Source: Bacillus pumilus
GTDB lineage: Bacteria > Bacillota > Bacilli > Bacillales > Bacillaceae
DNA: 64,000 nucleotides
Assembly (NCBI RefSeq): GCF_003431975.1
Contig: NZ_CP027116.1
Location: forward strand, 2,108,001 to 2,172,000
Direction: 5' to 3'
How positions within the stretch are numbered: position 1 is the stretch's first letter; the number at the start of each line of letters is the position of its first letter. Under the pieces are notes generated by a model, which saw nothing but the letters and a program-made list of their open reading frames with translations, was not told where the DNA came from and made no database searches. The translations under genes were made by a program, and so were the position numbers. Below, in pieces: positions 4,725 to 47,569 of the stretch.

Positions 4725-5516
4725 ATGAAAATGGTAATTCAAGATACCGCTGATGTTTATTTCAGACGAAAATCTGATGGACATCTTGTGTTCACAACAG
4801 AAGCTCAGTTAGCGTCACTATCTGGAGCTATTTCTGAGGAAAAGTTGTTTGGCGGTATCGGAAATAAACCGATCTACATTCTTAAGACTCAAAAAGAGCT
4901 AACGCTATCTGTTAGAAACGCTTTATTTGACTTAGAGTTCTTAGCGATGTCGCAAGGTGAAGGTGTTCAAGAAGATGTCACTGTTAAATTGTTTGACCGA
5001 GAGCACAGTATTGAAGTTGCGGAAGACAATAGCATCGAATTAAAAGGGAAGCCTCTTGCAGATCATATGGTTACTTTTTACAACAAAAAGAATCAAACAT
5101 ATCAAGTCATTTCTAGTAGCGATGGAAAATACACACTGCCAACTGCATTTGTGTCTCCGAAGGAAACTGTTACTGCAGTATTCCATGTCGAAAAAATGGG
5201 CAGAAGTATGAATATCAAGGCTTCTCGTTTTTCTGAGAGATACGAAGTTGAATATAGAACAATTGCTTACAATCCAGAAACTGAGCAAGTTTACTCTGAT
5301 ATTATCATCCAGTTCCCTAACGTTTCACCTTCAGGAGAATTCGAGCTCTCTTTAGAAAATGGTCAAGCGTTGACTCCAGAATTCAAATTCGAAGCTCTTG
5401 CTGATATGGACACAGACAACATGGCTGTAATTTCAGAAATTCCTCGTGATCAATCAGAAAATAAAACTCCTACTCAGCCAGACGAAGGTGCTACCGATGG
5501 TGATCTAGGAGAATAA
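4725..5516 (+). CDS. Probable major tail (tube) protein
   Basis: 263 residues from the ATG that follows AAGGAGG (4711-4717). An in-frame upstream codon at 4692 would place this ribosome site inside the gene, so it is rejected. The N-terminal 90 residues are typical of tail tube subunits (KMVIQDTADVYFRRKS, then LFGGIGNKPIYILKTQKEL). A 60-residue insert of carboxypeptidase-like beta type follows (LADHMVTFYNKKNQTY), then a closing tube-like segment (NVSPSGEFELSLENGQ, KFEALADMD). The last 20 residues are acidic and disordered. The tube role fits the motif pattern LTPEFKFEALADMDT and the position ahead of tail fibre genes. Confidence 0.65.
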   Translation: MKMVIQDTADVYFRRKSDGHLVFTTEAQLASLSGAISEEKLFGGIGNKPIYILKTQKELTLSVRNALFDLEFLAMSQGEGVQEDVTVKLFDREHSIEVAEDNSIELKGKPLADHMVTFYNKKNQTYQVISSSDGKYTLPTAFVSPKETVTAVFHVEKMGRSMNIKASRFSERYEVEYRTIAYNPETEQVYSDIIIQFPNVSPSGEFELSLENGQALTPEFKFEALADMDTDNMAVISEIPRDQSENKTPTQPDEGATDGDLGE

Positions 5517-11063: not shown

Positions 11064-11092
11064 TTGTACACTTGGGGAGAGAAGATTGTTTT

Positions 11093-11608
11093 ATGGCCAA
11101 ATTTAATCAAAACAGAAGTTTTTTTAGAGGCGAAGTATACTTTGTTAACTTTCCTAGAGAGCCGAAATTAGGTAAGGAAAGCTCTAGAATTATGGAAGGC
11201 CCTCACAGGGCAGTAGTTCTATTTGACAGTACGTTTCCTAGAAAGACTGTAGTAGTCTTGCCTATAACATCCCTGTACTCTGATAAAAATACAACTAAGG
11301 ACACTATATCCTCTGATGTTATACTGAAGAGACTTGAGTATACAAACTTAAATGGCAATGACGCTATATATAACAATACAATCACACGTGATTCATTCAT
11401 AAAAGTTGATCAGATAAGGTCTGTTTCGAGAAATTACCTTGAACGGCATGTAGGTAAAATCTTAGAAAAAGACATGGTAAAAGTTGATTTACAGCTTATC
11501 AATGTTCTAAGTCTTCAAGAGACTATTGAAGAGATCATCGAACAGCGTGTTGAGGAAAGATTGTTGGAAATTGTTGAGCAGCAAGAAATTGAAAATAATC
11601 AAGATTGA
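11093..11608 (+). CDS. MazF/PemK-like toxin family protein
   Basis: 171 residues from ATG 11093 (ribosome site GGGGAGAG). The N-terminal 110 residues show the MazF/PemK barrel pattern: RGEVYFVNFPREPKLGKE, then GPHRAVVLFDSTFPRKTVVV followed by LPITS. The segment ITRDSFIKVDQIRSVSR matches the later conserved strand in which a polar D..R/Q pair lies. MazF proteins cut single-stranded RNA. The last 60 residues are a long acidic coiled-coil helix (ETIEEIIEQRVEERLLEIV) not found in minimal MazF, which may mediate oligomers or partner binding. A terminator follows. Confidence 0.65.
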   Translation: MAKFNQNRSFFRGEVYFVNFPREPKLGKESSRIMEGPHRAVVLFDSTFPRKTVVVLPITSLYSDKNTTKDTISSDVILKRLEYTNLNGNDAIYNNTITRDSFIKVDQIRSVSRNYLERHVGKILEKDMVKVDLQLINVLSLQETIEEIIEQRVEERLLEIVEQQEIENNQD

Positions 11609-15853: not shown

Positions 15854-16546
15854 TCATTTAGAAATTGATGTTAATATTCCGTCTTCAAAGTACAAATATT
15901 TGTTTCCCTTATAAACCCACTGTTTTAAGGTTCGATTTTTTGTGATATTTGTATTTACCTTTGTCGGTCTTCCCCACCCATTTATTAACACATCATCTTC
16001 CGTCATTCCAATAGATATGCTTTGTGGATTCAACGTCCTATCCTCTATTTGTTTCTTTCTTTCATATTCTTCAGTCTCATTCTTATCTTTTACTTCGTTT
16101 TGGTTTTTGAGAGTCTCTAAAGATTTGATTTTATCTAAATTATCTTTCTTGAATTGCTTAAAGTTCAAATCACTATGATCATTTGAATATTTAACTTTAT
16201 CTAGCATGGCCTCAATGTATGCATATGAATCATAGTTCTCAACGTTTGCTTTCTTTTCATTTAAGTCTTTATTTTTTTTAAAAGCAGAAGCTATAAAATA
16301 ATAATCTTTTTGAAAAACGTTGTTCAATTCAGAAGTTTTGCTGATAACCTCATCAAATTTTTCTTCCTTTATAAGCTGTATAAGCTTTCTATCTTCTTCA
16401 GTTAAATTATGACTATCATTAGCGGAACTCTTTTCTTCATTAGCGATTACAGTTTTAGTACTAGAAGATTCTTCTGTTACCTTGTTTTGTCCACATCCAG
16501 ACAAGATAACAATAGTTCCCAATATAAATAATATGGATTTATTCAT
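15854..16546 (-). CDS. Secreted lipoprotein, probable lysogenic-conversion gene
   Basis: 230 residues, minus strand, opposite to all neighbouring late genes. The N-terminus is a lipoprotein signal (MNKSILFILGTIVILSGCG) with lipobox ILSGC, so Cys18 should be lipidated and the protein held on the outer face of the membrane. The middle is a charged helical region (QLIKEEKFDEVISKTSEL). The last 60 residues (SIGMTEDDVLINGWGRPTKV) form a small domain like those of SmpA/BamE-type proteins. Orientation and isolation mark it as a gene expressed in the lysogen. Surface-bound phage lipoproteins often block superinfection, so that is the leading guess. Confidence 0.7.
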   Translation of the reverse strand: MNKSILFILGTIVILSGCGQNKVTEESSSTKTVIANEEKSSANDSHNLTEEDRKLIQLIKEEKFDEVISKTSELNNVFQKDYYFIASAFKKNKDLNEKKANVENYDSYAYIEAMLDKVKYSNDHSDLNFKQFKKDNLDKIKSLETLKNQNEVKDKNETEEYERKKQIEDRTLNPQSISIGMTEDDVLINGWGRPTKVNTNITKNRTLKQWVYKGNKYLYFEDGILTSISK

Positions 16547-16644: not shown

Positions 16645-19600
16645 TTGAGCGAACAACTAAAAATATTCGTTACTCCTGTAGCAGACACATCTCCACAAAC
16701 GACCGAAAACCTGAACAAGCAAATTAGACAGCTACAGACTAAACTAAATTCACTTGAATTAAAAACGAACATCGATAACAATACGTTAAAGGCTTTAAAA
16801 GAGTTCACTGCTGCAATGGACAAATATCAGTCCAATTTAAAAAATTATAATGATACCGTTAAAGAAACGACTAAGATTACTCAACATCTTAATGGGAATG
16901 TCACTAAGGTAACTCAGGAACATAAGCGCAGTGGCGAAATTCTCCAGAGAACAACCGAAAAAATTAAAGAGCAAACTAAAGAAACAAATAATTTAGCCTC
17001 CGCACAACAAAAACTTGGTCAAGTCGTTAAAAATACCGAGAGAATGAATGCTCAAGGTAAAGTTACTGGTTCTACTCAGAAAAATCGTGATGGTTACAAG
17101 GATTATACATACAATCTCGATGAAAAAGGAAATGTAAAAAACTCTACTGTTTCCACTAACTTCGATAAAAAAAGAAAAGATATTGATGCGTTAAACGCCT
17201 CTCTTCAAAGACTTCGTGAGCAAGGTATTTTATCCGATACCACCCTCTCTTCCCTTGGTCGTAAAATCAACCTTGCTCAATCCTCAGCCCAAATTGATTC
17301 CCTCAAGCAAAAAATTCGTACATTAGATGACAAGTCGTCTGCTGTTGCAAAGAATAACGAGCTAAAGCAAACGATTGCACTGTACCAAAGGCAAGCTCAG
17401 TTAAATGCAAACAATTTAACGAGTAAGTATGGCAATAACTTAAGTAATCAGAGTAAGGCACAGATTCAAGAATACCTTCTTGCTGTTACTCAGCTCACTT
17501 CTAAAACCCCTGCACTATCTTCAAAAATTAAAGACCTCAATATGCAATTTAGAGAGCTTTCAAGCTCTATTCAAAACTCAACCCAAAGAGCTACATCGTT
17601 TGGACAACAATTGGGCGATGCTTTTAGTCGTATTCCAGCATATTTGCTTTCAGGTTCTATATTTTATGGAGCTATTACAGCTTTAAAAAATATAACCCAG
17701 CAAGCAATCGAAATCGACACTCTAATGACAAATATCCGAAGAGTCATGGATTTGCCAGATTACAAATTCAATGAGCTCCTTCAAACTTCATTAGATTTAA
17801 GTAATGAATTATCAAACAAAGTATCAGATGTTCTTGAAATTACGGGAAGTTTTGGGCGTATGGGCTTCCAAGCAGATGAATTATCCGATTTAACGAAAAC
17901 TGCACAAGTTTTGCAGAATATTTCAGATTTGAGCGCAACAGACACAGTAAATTCACTTACTGCTGCTATGCTTAACTTTAATATTTCCGCAAAAGACTCA
18001 ATTTCTATCGCTGATAAGCTCAATGAAGTTGACAATAATTTTAGTATAACCACGCTCGACATGGCTAATTCGATAAGAAAAGCTGGAAGTACCGCTTCCA
18101 CCTTCGGTGTTGAATTAAATGACTTAATTGGCTATACTGCGGCCATCGGAAGCACCACACGAGAAAGCGGAAATATAGTCGGTAAACGAATTGCTGACTT
18201 TAAATCTCTTCTGATTGACTTGGAACTCCTAACGTATAGACGAGGACAACAAGGGGCAAGCGTAATGGCAGCCTGAACGACTGAGCGAAGAGACACTTTT
18301 TGTGAAGCGACAGTCTGAACTTCTATGGAAACATAGAGAGTGTGGTTGAAGTGCCCCACCGCCATTCATTAATGGTCAGTAACCTTTAAGGTGAAGTAAC
18401 AGAATCGAACTCGTTAAAAACCATATTTGCAAGAATAGGCAACAACAGAAGTTCAATTAAAGCATTAGATCAAATTGGGATCTCTGTACAAACTGCTGCT
18501 GGAGAAGCAAAGACCTCTAGCGAACTTATTGGAGAAGTTGCGGAAAAATGGGATAGCCTATCAGATGCCCAGAAGCAAAACACTTCCATTGGTGTAGCTG
18601 GTATTTATCAATTGTCCAGATTTAACGCCCTACTGAATAACTACTCAATCTATCAAGACGCAGCTAACACGTCTGCAAACTCAATGGGTTCGGCATGGAA
18701 AGAACAAGAAAAGTATGCTGATAGCTTACAGGCACGGATAAACCGCCTTCAAAATACGGTTACTGAATTTGCTGTTGCCGCCAGTGATGCCTTCATTTCA
18801 GATGGTCTTATCGCATCTACAGAAGCGCTAGGAAATTTCATGGGGTTAACAACTGGGCTAGTTAAAAACATCGGCTTCCTCGCCCCTGCCTTCGGAACAG
18901 CTACAGTCGCCACATTATTGTTCTCATCTGCACTTAGAAGTACGTCAATGCAAAGTGGAAATCAGATAATAAACACGCTAAGAGCACTCCCTGCAAATCT
19001 GCAAACCTATTCTATAAAAGCAGCAACTGCAACAGCTACTACTAATATATTATCGCATTCGTTTGCAGCGCTAGGTAAAGCTGCAAGATCAGTAGGTATA
19101 TTTTTAGCTGGAACCGCCCTTCCTATTGCTGCTTTTGCCGCTCTTGGATTTGTGGTCGAAAAGCTTGTAAGCACTTATGCTGATGCCAAAAAAGCTCAAG
19201 AGGAATTTGAAACAGCGCAAAAAACTTCCATCGAAGCGTGGACTACAAACAAAGAAGCTACTCAAGGGTTAATTGACAAGTATAAAGAACTTCGTAAAGC
19301 TAAAGATGACAACCAATTAACGCCTGAAAAAGAACAAGAGTACTTATCAGTCTCACAACAGTTAGCAGCAACATTCCCCAACCTAGTTGAAGGATATGAC
19401 GCTCAAGGTAATGCCATCATAAAGAACAATGAAGCCTTAAAAGAGGCAATTAAATACACTGAAGAGATGGCAAACTTCAATAAGCGTGATTTGAAAGACA
19501 ACGCAGCTTCTAATTTTGAAGATCAAATTAAAAAGCTAAAAGATTTGAACAAAGAAATGGAAGCTAATAAAACTTTAGCTGATAACTACAAAGAAGGTTC

Positions 19601-22600
19601 AAGTTGGATTACAAGAATCTTCGAAAACCCCTTCGCTAATGATGATGATTACGTAAAAGAAGGATACAAATACGAACGTGAAGCCTTGCGTGCGAAACAA
19701 TCAATAGTAAGTGCAAATGCAGAGATTCAAGCTTCAGTATTAGATGTAATCAGTGCGTTTAACTCCATTGATATTAACCCTAATATTAAAAAGTCCATAA
19801 CTGACATCCTGAATACAATGGACTTCAGCAAGTTAAGTCCTGAACAACTTAAGAGCTTTTCGCAGCAAGTAGCTACAATAATGGACTCCCTTCAAAAGTC
19901 TCTTAATAATAGCAATGGTTCAGAGTTTGATAAGCAAACAGCATCACTAAAATCTCTTATTACTGAGTTTTCAGATGGAAAAGTAAAAGTTGATAACTTG
20001 AACCTCTCCTACTCTACCCTTAAAGATTCGTTAGATCAGGCTAAAAATGCTGGTGATTCAGCAAAGGTAGTTTGGAACGAGAATGGTGAAGGTGTAGATG
20101 AGTTAGGTGAATCAGTTGGAAATCTATCTGACAAACTCAAAGAAGTTAAAGGCGACATTGAAGCTACTGTAGATGTTTTAGATCAATTACTGCAATCTGG
20201 CCAAGCTACAGCGGCAATGGAAGCTTTGCAAGGCGATGTCTACGATGATTTAGCTGATCAGGTATCCCCTCTCAATGGATTACTGGAAAAAATGGCAGAA
20301 GGTAAATCTATTTCTGCTTCAGAAGCGATGAAGCTTATCCAAAAGGAAAAAGATTTAGCAGGTGCGATTTCAGTTGAAAACGGCATTGTGAAAATTAATC
20401 GTGATGCAGTAATCAAGCTACGAAACGCTAAGGTTAAAGCATATGCAGATATGCAAACTTCCGTAAAACAAGAGTTATTGAATCAAGCGAATGCCTTAAA
20501 TAAGAAAATCGGGTATTACAAATCTGAAATCACAGCAATTAAAACTGTTCAAGATGCATTGAGAAAAAAGGCAGAGTTGGAAAAGTTAAAAGAAGATTCT
20601 TTGAAAATGACCAATGGTAAGCAAGATCAACTTGCGATTGAACAATTTAAGGCTGCTCAAAGAGATCTTGGTGAATTATCTGGTATCACTGACCAACTAG
20701 AAGAATTAGATAAGCTTTCAGAATTAACTCAAGCATCTTTAAATGAAACAGGAACGTCTTTTGAAACAATGTCGGATTCAGCTGACAAGGCTTCAAAATC
20801 AACGAAAGATTCAATCTATGTTGCAGACAAATATAAAGAAGCATTAGAGCGAGTCAATAAGCAGATTGAAGAACAAAACAGAAAAACTAATGACTACCCT
20901 AAATGGTCACAGAAATATCGTGATTCCATTAAGAAGGAAATCAAGGCGTTAGAACGAAAAGAAAAACTTCTTAAAAGTCAGATTAAGCTTCTTAAAGAGC
21001 AAATTAAATCTGGCTACATTGCTCAAACGGGTATTGTTGATTCTTCTTCATCCTACTCCCCTTCTAGCTCTTCATATTCTGCTTCAGGCGGTTCTTACTC
21101 TGGTAAGTATTCAAATATTATCAATCAGGCTGCATCGAAATACAATGTCCCAGCTGCTTTAATTGCTGCAGTTATTAAGCAAGAATCAAACTTCAACCCA
21201 AATGCTCGTTCATCAGTTGGAGCAACAGGATTAATGCAACTTATGCCAGCTACAGCTAGAGGTCTTGGAGTTAAAAATTCAAAAGATCCTTATCAAAACG
21301 TTATGGGCGGTACCAAATATCTTAAGCAAATGCTTGATAAGTTTGGATCGATTGAAAAGGCATTAGCCGCCTACAATGCGGGGCCTGGAAATGTAACCAA
21401 GTATGGCGGTATTCCTCCATTTAAGGAAACCCAGAATTACGTAAAGAAAGTAAATAACTACTTTAAACAAATGGGTGGCTCTCTATCCTCTAGTGGTGGA
21501 TCAGCTGCTGGTTACTATGACTCCATGAGAAGAACATCTCACTTTGGTCAGCAAGAAAAAGGATTGCGCTCCACTCCTCATAAAGGTTTAGACTTGGCTG
21601 CTAAATCTGGTACTCCTATCAAATCACTTAAATCAGGTAAAGTCCTCACAGCCGCATACTCTAAATCTGCTGGTTATTGGGTCGTTGTTCAACAAGATGA
21701 TGGCACAGTTGCTAAGTATATGCATATGCAAAAAGGACTCAATGTTAAAGCTGGACAAAAGGTTCAGGCTGGCCAAACTCTCGGTAAAATGGGAAGCACT
21801 GGTCACTCTACAGGCACTCACCTTCATATGCAGATCGAGAAAAACGGTAAACCGATTGATCCCGAAGCCTACATGCAACAAATTGGCTCTGACCTGTCTA
21901 GTTCTGATGCTGAACGTCAACAAGCCATTTCACAAGCTAAATCTGATTTACTGGGACTTGAAGGCGACCTCTCTTCTGTTAAAGACCAAATTCAAGATTT
22001 GCAATACGAACTAGTCCAATCTAAGCTTGATGAATTTGAAAAACGTAAATCTGATTTAGAATTGAAAGTTGCTCAAAATCAATCTAAAGCTAGTCGTTAT
22101 CTCAATGACAGTGCTCAGTTTAGAAAATACACGAATGAGCAACGTAAAGCAGTTGAAGCACAACAAAAGATTCAAAGTCAAAAAGTTAGTTGGATTAACA
22201 AAGAGTTAAAGCAAAATAAGCAATTAAACGCTGCTCAACGTGATCAATTACGTGAAGAATTAAAACAAGCTAAACTTGACCTCATCAGCATCAAAGATCA
22301 GGTTTATGAGTTACAGGCTACTATTGTTCAATCTAAAACTGATCAAATTCTTAATAACATTGATAAGTCAGTCAAAAAGACTGAATCAAAGCTTAAGAAC
22401 ATCGATATCAAGATACAGACAACCGAAGAAGACAAAGATAAAGTTATGTACTATAGTCAGCAAATCAAGCTGATTCAGCAACAACAAAAAGAAGCTGCAA
22501 AGTACATAAAAGATTTAGAGAAACAAAAGAAAGCAGCTAAGGGTTTCCCTGAAATCCAAAAACAAATTTCGGACGAAATATCTTCTTGGAAAGATAAGCA

Positions 22601-23717
22601 AAAGGATTTCAACTTAGAGCTTTATCAGACCAAGAAAAGTATTAAGGATATTTATAAGTCGCTTGCTGATGAAGTTGTCTCCATTTATAAAGAGATGTAC
22701 GAAAAGATGCGTGATATTGAGCTTGAAGCTCATCGGAAAGCTACTCAAGATATCATTGATGGTATTGACAAGGAAGACGATGAAGCTAAGTTCCAAAAGG
22801 ATTTAAAAGATCGTCAGGAAAGCGTCCAAAAGCTTTTAGATCAGATAAATCAATATGCGCTCGATGACTCTGAGTTTGGTAAGTCGAAAGTAAAAGAACT
22901 TACTGAACAGATGCAAAAAGAACAGCTTGATTTAGATCAATTCCTAAAAGATCGTGAAAACTCCAAGCGTAAAGAGGCGCTTCAAGATCAACTTGAAAAA
23001 GACGAAAAATCAATTAACACCAAGTATGATGACCTTGTAAATGATGAACGTGGATTTAAGGATTTAGAAGGAAAATTGATGAACGGTAAGATTAGTGACA
23101 TCAATAAACAGCTTTCTGAGTTCACTAAGTTTATTAATTCAAACATGGAGTTAATCGGTAAGTCTATCTCTAACAACTTAATTGATAAGCTTAAAGAGGC
23201 TTCAAATGCTCTAGGTGTTGTTGTTAAGGGTAACACAACAGGTAAAAAGGTAGCTGCTTTTGACACAGGCGGTTACACAGGCACTGGTTTGGGGAGTGGC
23301 AAGCTAGCCGTACTCCATGATAAAGAGCTAGTTCTTAACAAGACTGACACTGAAAATATGCTTAAAGCTGTCGAAACCGTTAGAGACATCAGCCAAATTG
23401 ATGTGCCGTTTTCCCCGAAATGGGGAACTGGACAAAAGTTGAACTCAGTTTTGTCTAACGTTCCGACTGAAGCAGTTAAATTAGCGGGAGCGAACATTGT
23501 TAAGAGCGCATCATCCGCCATTAGCATTATTCCTAGCGCTATCACAAAACTTACAAAAGCTCCTCAGTCTACAGTTATGTCTTCTGTCTCGAACGACCAG
23601 GGCGATGTTTACAATCTAACCTTGCAGATTGATAAGATGGTTGGTGATGAAAATGGCGCAAACAATGCTTTGGAAAATATCAGAAGAGGATTAAAGCAAA
23701 TGAAAGGTAAGGTATAA
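16645..23717 (+). CDS. yomI: Tape-measure protein with two cell-wall hydrolase domains, split by a group I intron
   Basis: Exons 16645-18183 and 18408-23717 join in frame into 2282 residues, close to SPbeta YomI (CwlP). Start is TTG. The first 500 residues are coiled coil and tape-measure-like; the splice junction restores [19 protein letters not shown], a typical tape-measure motif. Hydrophobic segments lie about residues 620-710. An SLT transglycosylase domain spans about 1410-1525 (catalytic Glu1439 in IKQESNF, then GLMQLMP and AYNAGPGN). An M23 endopeptidase domain spans about 1555-1665 (His1571 and Asp1575 in HKGLD; His1651 and His1653 in HLH). A long coiled coil follows. It sets tail length and opens the wall during DNA entry. 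Without splicing, translation stops at 18274 after 543 codons. Confidence 0.9.
18184..18407 (+). ncRNA. Group I self-splicing intron in the tape-measure gene
   Basis: 224 nt, no open frame for an endonuclease. P1: exon AGTCGGT (18177-18183) pairs with GCTGACT (18193-18199), with the U-G pair at the splice site. P3: TCTCTTC (18205-18211) with GAAGAGA (18287-18293). P5: TCCT with AGGA (18243-18246). P7: GACTG (18279-18283) with CAGTC (18311-18315). P8: CAC with GTG (18302-18304). P9: CTATG-GAAA-CATAG (18323-18336). Further hairpins are CCATT/AATGG (18362-18375) and ACCT/AGGT (18382-18392). The intron ends in G18407, and exon bases AACTCGT can pair with 18186-18192 as P10 with one mismatch. Removal fuses codon 513 to the next frame. 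Confidence 0.88.
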
Positions 23718-33284: not shown

Positions 33285-33602
33285 CGATTTTAAGTAAACA
33301 AAAAATAAACTCCCCCTTGAGCTGTGGTAGGTAAAAGGGAAAGTCTATCCTTAAAACTATCTGATTGATTAGCCAGCACTTGAGTGCTCATTGTACATTA
33401 AAAGGATGTTAGCGCATCCTTATTTCTTTCTAGTTACAAATAACAAACATCTTATGAAAGTGGACAGTTGTTGAAATGTCTGTTTTTGTTTAGCTCAGGC
33501 TATTGCACTAGCCCAAGCTAATTCCACCTCAAAGGAGGTGAAAAATATTTAGCTATCCTGATCCTAATTTCATTTTATCTAAATTCAATGTTTATTTCAA
33601 CT
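33285..33602. other. Hairpin-rich non-coding region between late genes and the SOS cassette
   Basis: About 318 bases without an open frame worth calling. Visible structures are AAGGATG/CATCCTT (33402-33421), TAGCTcaGGCTA/TAGCCcaAGCTA (33491-33520) and CACCTC/GAGGTG (33526-33540, again embedding a Shine-Dalgarno-like AAAGGAGGTG). The first may end the convergent uvrX transcript. In SPbeta the comparable interval carries the sublancin genes; none is present here. Confidence 0.45.
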
Positions 33603-41690: not shown

Positions 41691-41740
41691 GAAAACGATC
41701 CACGGATCTTCAGCTCAAACAAGAGCTGTTTCATTTTGCT

Positions 41741-41809
41741 CACTCATAGTCGGACTGTATCGGTGTCCGGTAGAAACTTGCGTGCCATCATCACGCGATT
41801 ATATGAGTG
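41741..41809 (-). promoter_or_regulatory. Guanine (purine) riboswitch aptamer
   Basis: Minus strand: P1 is ATGAGTG/CACTCAT-type pairing of 41803-41809 with 41741-41747. It contains the ATAATC junction, loop L2 TGATGAT-like, the strand AAGTTTCTACCGG and CCGACTAT, all standard for the xpt class. The pyrimidine that selects the ligand is C in GACTAT, the guanine/xanthine type. A -10 box TATAAT lies just upstream (41823-41828). It switches off xpt-pbuX when guanine is plentiful. Confidence 0.93.
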
Positions 41810-41863
41810 TTATAGTGTTCAAATTATAACAAGATTTCAGACGCTTGGAAAGCACTTTTCTAG

Positions 41864-47165: not shown

Positions 47166-47569
47166 AACGGATATAACGTTCTGTAAGCCATGTTTTGTTC
47201 CATCGTACTGCAAACGGCAAAAGCCTCGTACTCAGGTGGTAATCATCTATCTACAGAATTCTCTGTCCTTCTCTCCGTTTGGTTCCTTTGAGAAAGTTCC
47301 CCTACCAAGTTTGGGTTTCTCGCTCGAGGGGTTTACCGCGTTCCACTCTCACCATTTCTAGTGAGACTTCGTCACTGTGGCACTTTCAAGGATACTTTGC
47401 CATATCCTAAAAGGACGTAGGCATTTTTCCTGCCGTCAGCCTTTCCCAGACTGCCCTGGCTTATTTTTTCGCCAGGCACGAACACTACGGGCATCTCAGC
47501 ACCGTGCGAGCATGGACTTTCCTCTGCAATGTCTAAAAGCATTACAGCGATTACCCGAACGTTAATCAA
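47166..47569 (-). ncRNA. rnpB: RNase P RNA, type B
   Basis: About 404 nt on the minus strand. Conserved segments are clear: near the 5' end AACGTTCGGGTAATCGCTG, then AGAGGAAAGTCCATGCTCGC and GGTGCTGAGATGCCC, later GAGTGGAACGCGGTAAACCC and CTCGAGCGAGAAACCC, and near the 3' end ATGGCTTACAGAACGTTA. The first and last AACGTT blocks pair to form P1. It is the catalytic subunit that trims tRNA 5' ends. Ends are approximate by a few bases. Confidence 0.95.

Follow-up and report, generated by a model that had tools for sequence, protein, structure and literature searches.

An endonuclease-free, putatively self-splicing group I intron in the tape-measure gene of an SPbeta-like Bacillus prophage

The tape-measure gene of an SPbeta-like prophage in Bacillus pumilus poses the question of whether a virion gene with an interrupted reading frame is broken or whether the interruption is removed from its message. 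In the window, which denotes the entire 64,000-nucleotide stretch of DNA that was analysed, the 5′ frame from TTG 16645 runs into a TGA at 18274–18276, which would stop translation of an unspliced message, and reading picks up again at 18408, both as the first-pass annotation had described. We delineate a 5′ exon of 513 codons (16645–18183; the TTG start is predicted), a phase 0 insert of 224 nt (18184–18407) between a glycine and an asparagine codon (GGT-AAC), and a 3′ exon of 1769 codons plus stop (18408–23717); these and the intron elements given below lie on the forward strand. Joined, the exons comprise 2282 residues, in agreement with the length previously given for the product after removal of the insert. 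In profile comparisons the two exons match consecutive stretches of phrog_4211 (195–771 with E 2e-144, then 772–2449) and of phrog_14917 (5′ exon to position 495, 3′ exon from 496), so that the profiles run through the junction without gap or surplus; the Pfam domain PhageMin_Tail (PF10145) is likewise split there into 3–130 and 136–195. The 3′ exon carries the remaining tail domain, an SLT transglycosylase (PF01464, E 3e-32) and an M23 peptidase (PF01551, E 8e-31). This is the domain order of YomI/CwlP-like proteins and bears out the earlier assignment of the host gene to the tape-measure/CwlP type. The longest stop-free stretch in the six frames of the 224 nt amounts to 60 codons, and by this check coding capacity for a homing endonuclease is absent from the insert, as had been claimed. 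An intein was also considered and is ruled out by the in-frame stops in the insert. Upstream of the tape-measure region lies a PemK/MazF-like toxin gene (11072–11608) and, just in front of the tape-measure gene and antisense to the tail genes, a 230-codon ORF (15854–16546, −) with a weak PHROG match.

The ends of the insert are defined by related genes, which were taken from viral contigs, genomes and phage records and are denoted by L numbers. In 15 relatives, of which L020 and L029 seemingly represent a single contig, the site is empty: ESGNIVG directly adjoins N[SA]LKTIFA, joined exactly at the predicted intron ends. The comparison with intron-less yomI genes proposed at the outset thus yields alleles that lack exactly these 224 nt; 8 of the 15 carry inserts at other sites of the gene. 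The same two motifs are 223–225 nt apart in L003, L012, L013, L014, L016, L018, L019, L027 and L028, the introns of L003 and L028 being identical. Upstream of the insert, the last 30 exon bases of the occupied alleles L012 and L013 are identical to those in the empty alleles L009 and L010.

The insert presents the canonical group I helix order P3-P4-P5-P6-P7-P8 with the P3/P7 pseudoknot. Its core was evaluated in alignment A2 comprising 30 introns over P3–P9, 12 from the window's site and 18 others retrieved by a 16-base match. P3 (18205–18211 with 18287–18293) is paired in 99.5% of the alignment cells, and 6 of its 7 pairs are changed on both sides. P4 (18219–18222 with 18250–18253) and P6 (18254–18257 with 18271–18274) are paired in 100%, while P5 (18227–18230 with 18243–18246) is the weakest helix with 80.7%. 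P7 (GACTG, 18279–18283, with CAGTC, 18311–18315), by analogy the presumed guanosine-binding helix, is paired in 100% of cells and includes one compensatory pair, and the P8 hairpin (CAC/GTG, 18294–18304) is paired in 94.4% with all 3 pairs changed on both sides. P9 is read from the sequence as the hairpin TCTATG-GAAA-CATAGA (18322–18337). The seven-pair P3, P7, P8 and P9 with its GAAA loop named in the first-pass annotation were all found. Altogether, 96.1% of 900 cells pair in the group I structure and 18 of 30 core pairs show changes on both sides; the 133 compensatory cells compare with a mean of 42.9 after shuffling (0 of 500 shuffles as high) and with 9–24 for slid control structures. RNAalifold recovers P3, P4, P5, P6 and P8 without a supplied structure. 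In two further alignments, A3 (18 introns) and A5 (15 introns), every member was retrieved by a 16-base exact match to the window's intron, and the columns covered by such a match are consequently pre-selected. Folding of the single window sequence gives a z of −1.74, with 12 of 200 shuffles folding equally well, and its minimum-energy fold does not recover P3; single-sequence folding would on its own be weak evidence.

The splice sites are marked by pairings that involve the exons. P1 is formed by the exon strand AGTCGGT (18177–18183) and the internal guide strand GCTGACT (18193–18199) with 7/7 pairs and a U-G pair at the splice site, the U being at 18183, precisely as previously predicted. 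Across five exon/guide haplotypes from 18 occupied alleles, in which exon and guide both vary and the guides of L161 and L167 were located by hand, 35/35 positions pair; the seventh position occurs as A-U, U-A and C-G, the sixth shows a G-C to A-U change, and 4 of 120 re-pairings of the haplotypes do as well. At the other end, the terminal G (18407) is a G in 10 aligned occupied rows, and the P10 guide part (18186–18192) pairs at 6/7 positions with 18408–18414, which upholds the earlier reading of both elements. In a comparison leaving out L161 and L167, guide and 3′ exon of L095, L115 and L134 differ together and retain 6/7 pairs once the register is moved by one position; weaker P10 pairing is seen in L133 (three adjacent pairs), L158, L162 and L076, and L153, L154 and L156 have no more than two adjacent pairs.

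A message ending at 18274 would leave the 3′ exon untranslated unless translation restarts. Over the 500 codons after the intron, the window differs from L012 with dN 0.056 and dS 0.79 and from L013 with dN 0.053 and dS 0.74, all of these alleles being occupied. By these ratios, taken against other occupied alleles, purifying selection on the 3′ exon is strong, which makes it very probable that the intron is removed from the message. A frame break near codon 444 of its 3′ exon led to the exclusion of L028 from this comparison. The break in this Bacillus pumilus 36R_ATNSAL copy lies near 5382 and reflects either a sequencing error or decay.

Prophages decay, and the insert could be a once-active group I intron that no longer splices, so that the tape-measure gene would be broken and the prophage defective. 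We consider this quite unlikely, given that the window keeps its core pairs save the outer P5 pair 27-48, which is absent in 17 of the 30 rows, and that the 3′ exon is open over all 1769 codons under the selection described. Programmed translational bypassing, in which ribosomes would hop over the insert on an uncut RNA, would accommodate the in-frame stop and the conserved structured RNA, a combination that bypassing elements do possess. However, the group I order of the helices, the terminal G, P10 and the joint variation of the guide sequence with the 5′ exon all speak for a splicing RNA, and a hop of 224 nt would be longer than those known; we regard bypassing as barely credible. An error of sequencing or assembly, or unrelated sequence inserted by chance, can be dismissed, as the same insert occurs at the same codon junction in 14 of 80 mapped loci and in further independent contigs.

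The insertion at an exact site, the compensatory changes in a conserved core and the intact, selected exons are matters of observation. We infer that the intron splices, and by itself, and with high confidence favour an ORF-less group I intron in the tape-measure gene that would be spliced out to restore the complete protein; as first proposed, the compact group I intron has held on every computable test made. In the transcript, the intron would fold and bind guanosine at P7, the RNA would be cut after the U of P1, and the exons would be joined with the help of P10, whereas an unspliced message would specify a fragment of 543 residues. That the intron gates production of a lytic virion protein, as also proposed before, is a suggestion.

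Covariance models built from other introns recognise the insert. Model R2 (18 members) was planned from introns outside the tape-measure gene; as three of these members (L060, L063 and L080) are tape-measure introns, the one in L060 possibly at the site occupied in the window, the held-out model R3 was built without these three from 15 introns, of which 12 adjoin head, coat or portal exons and 3 are unassigned, none of them from the window's set. R3 gives the insert 118.3 bits (E 9.8e-31) and no other position of the 64 kb more than 12.6 bits; R2 gives it 119.3 bits, followed by a stray match of 17.2 bits (E 0.027) at 33466–33551. By simple arithmetic, the 16 retrieval bases explain at most about 32 bits of a model score. 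Model R1 detects no second family intron, either within the window (E below 0.8) or in the remainder of the own genome (E 0.01); among 44 genomes of the genus it has a match in 2, and among 80 of the family in 2, the own genome counted in each, and DNA similarity to the intron occurs in 3 of the 44 genus genomes. A class B RNase P RNA (47179–47562, −) and a purine riboswitch (41727–41826, −) in the window are ordinary host features.

The Infernal search with the general group I model, recommended in the first-pass annotation, which had listed a missing hit among the refuting outcomes, did not deliver the expected hit: Rfam RF00028 reports nothing at the intron at gathering and has no match in the window even at E 10. 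At gathering, RF00028 also misses the site-C intron, i.e. the one at the window's site, in 13/13 occupied loci searched, as well as the family introns of L008, L014, L033, L035, L037, L041, L043, L057, L076 and L085; the 13-locus search that included these ten loci does return introns for L006 and L007. At E 10 it does not match the introns of L003, L008, L039 and L041, and in a short stretch searched from L019 the site-C intron obtains a sub-threshold 25.6 bits (E 4.5e-4; cut-off 50). Because family introns are missed while others are reported, we read the silence of RF00028 as a limit of this model and not as evidence against a group I intron. A 2025 study calls the Rfam model incomplete (PMC11878797).

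The tape-measure gene is an intron hot spot. Of 99 relatives, 80 loci were kept and mapped by conserved anchors, which were used in place of gapped tblastn because the latter hid 225-nt introns. Within about 130 codons, 22 of the 80 loci carry 39 inserts of 223–333 nt, counts that do not represent independent events as many mapped contigs are close kin; the other 58 are without inserts, two of these (L126 and L132) giving a poor score at the final anchor. A low score at that anchor was also obtained for L153 and L154, for which tblastn shows the same downstream insert. Seven insertion sites were read by eye from the junctions and are numbered after SPBc2 YomI: site A at 466/467, A1 at 472/473, A2 in codon 477, B in codon 506, C (the window's site) at 522/523, D in codon 594 and D2 in codon 597, with A1 and A2 based solely on sequence likeness and position. 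Insert ends were chosen for a U before and a G at the close, so that agreement in these bases is partly built in, and the cut of site B in L081 is two bases too long. RF00028 matches a second, upstream intron of the same gene in L042, L054, L079 and L081 and a downstream one in L086; at sites A and D of L019 it gives 36.5 and 35.5 bits, below the cut-off. L016, which is outside the 80 loci, has inserts at A, A2 and C: in L016:1998-2641 a micro-exon of 32 nt separates two group I-like introns, and the third intron occupies the window's site. The longest stop-free stretch in 14 introns read is 72 codons, below the length of known endonucleases.

Introns at site C are more alike than the exons around them. 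Between L158 and L162 the intron is 97% identical and the neighbouring exon DNA 59%, and among the 12 alleles compared, pairs with exons 53–60% identical have introns 77–97% identical. In tree tests on groups picked after the trees had been seen, the exon proteins reject L158 and L162 as neighbours (p 1.1e-7) and the group L153/154/156/158 plus L162 (p 0.016); of the groupings set against the introns, the nine-row exon group is rejected (p 0.013), the L153/154/156/158 clade is not clearly rejected (p 0.052), and neither the eleven-row exon group (p 0.15) nor L153/154/156/158/162 (p 0.34) is rejected. The intron tree is poorly resolved, with 1 of 11 branches starred. As introns reach 97% identity in alleles whose exons share 59%, they have probably moved laterally between divergent phages without an endonuclease of their own. 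The exon ends with TCGGT in 17/17 occupied alleles tabulated versus 3/12 empty ones, a bias compatible with selection on P1 or with co-conversion. Movement to a new site may be illustrated by L023 at site A and L059 at site D: their introns are 92% identical, are both preceded by CGAT at positions about 130 codons apart and, judged by their sequences, are one intron at two sites. According to the Hausner review (PMC3984707), trans-acting endonucleases mobilise ORF-less introns and in-frame stops possibly aid intron folding; both would fit the window's intron. A search of the own genome for candidate trans-acting endonucleases gave no HNH_3 or LAGLIDADG_3 match, 2 GIY-YIG and 3 HNH matches, none of which lies within the window, although the prophage may reach beyond it.

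The family extends to other genes. Two pattern scans with 16-base pre-selection yielded 55 loci; R3 matches 48 of them at E 0.001 and 7 not. Seventeen of the 48 represent site C. For the other 31, the ORF beside the core was tested in 24 loci, the remaining 7 repeating a tested printed sequence, and was assigned to the major head protein in 13 (in L033 only at E 4e-4), a P22-like coat protein in 1, a portal protein in 2 and a tape-measure protein in 3, with no assignment in 5. The core therefore adjoins a head, portal or tail exon in 19/24 loci, a count that describes adjacency of core and gene. In L069 a LAGLIDADG ORF runs into the core, apparently in P6, and in L082 an HNH ORF lies beside it. 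Several core matches per locus, some of them weak, occur in L033, L041, L046, L057 and L080, with up to four in L057 and L046. Two loci were found by DNA similarity outside the 16-base pattern, Staphylococcus phage Twort (L005) and Roseobacter phage CRP-118 (L008:597-1000, OR420741.1). In the latter, the ribonucleotide reductase gene is annotated as two CDS, and the core between them, where no feature is annotated, scores 95.8 bits with R1 and 98.2 with R2.

Introns of this kind are already known, as a tail-gene intron of mycobacteriophages BAKA/Optimus and the intron-bearing orf142 of Twort are precedents. The BAKA/Optimus intron (265 bp, no endonuclease gene, splicing seen by RT-PCR) shares with the window's intron its small size, the lack of an endonuclease gene, the location in a virion tail gene, the U before and the G at its end, but belongs to another host phylum and another tail gene and is likened here by description only; a capsid intron of LittleE serves as a further mycobacteriophage comparison case (both PMC3706429). 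Twort orf142 encodes a tail tube protein (as cited in PMC11878797). The split terminase gene of Twort is 81.5% alike over 77 bases of the P1–P6 region (blastn), but differs in being a packaging gene with an annotated endonuclease gene (IepA), and the L005 stretch is not reported by R1, R2 or RF00028. In Staphylococcus phage StB12 (L006:64-802, JN700520.2), three CDS annotated as tail-associated peptidoglycan hydrolase, presumably one split gene, have RF00028 introns, one of about 220 nt and one of about 270 nt, between or over them; this is, however, another gene, and the matches to the family model are weak (29.4 and 26.2 bits). Bastillevirinae phages also contain group I introns, in some cases several per gene, but only in rNDPLs, DNA polymerases and terminases, in contrast to the window's intron in a tape-measure gene (PMC11878797). 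Among titles and abstract openings, with subscription papers mostly outside, we recognised no description of an intron in an SPbeta-like tape-measure gene.

The 2025 study asks why the introns of its phages are confined to nucleotide- and DNA-metabolism genes and, in answer, considers endonuclease warfare or energy-sensing switches (PMC11878797). A tail gene in which about 130 codons contain as many as three introns, none of them endonuclease-sized, adds another class of genes, and introns in structural genes make both the warfare and the switch explanation testable there. The results also suggest that searches relying exclusively on RF00028 undercount phage introns. Tentatively, and with doubts that outweigh our confidence, we propose that the window's intron belongs to a family overlooked by the standard model and located mainly in virion genes, for which the tape-measure gene of Bacillus phages would serve as a hot spot: introns lacking an endonuclease would cross between divergent phages there and reach new sites, via reverse splicing or a trans-acting endonuclease. 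If this is true, phage introns would be reported as restricted to DNA-metabolism genes in part because introns elsewhere escape detection.
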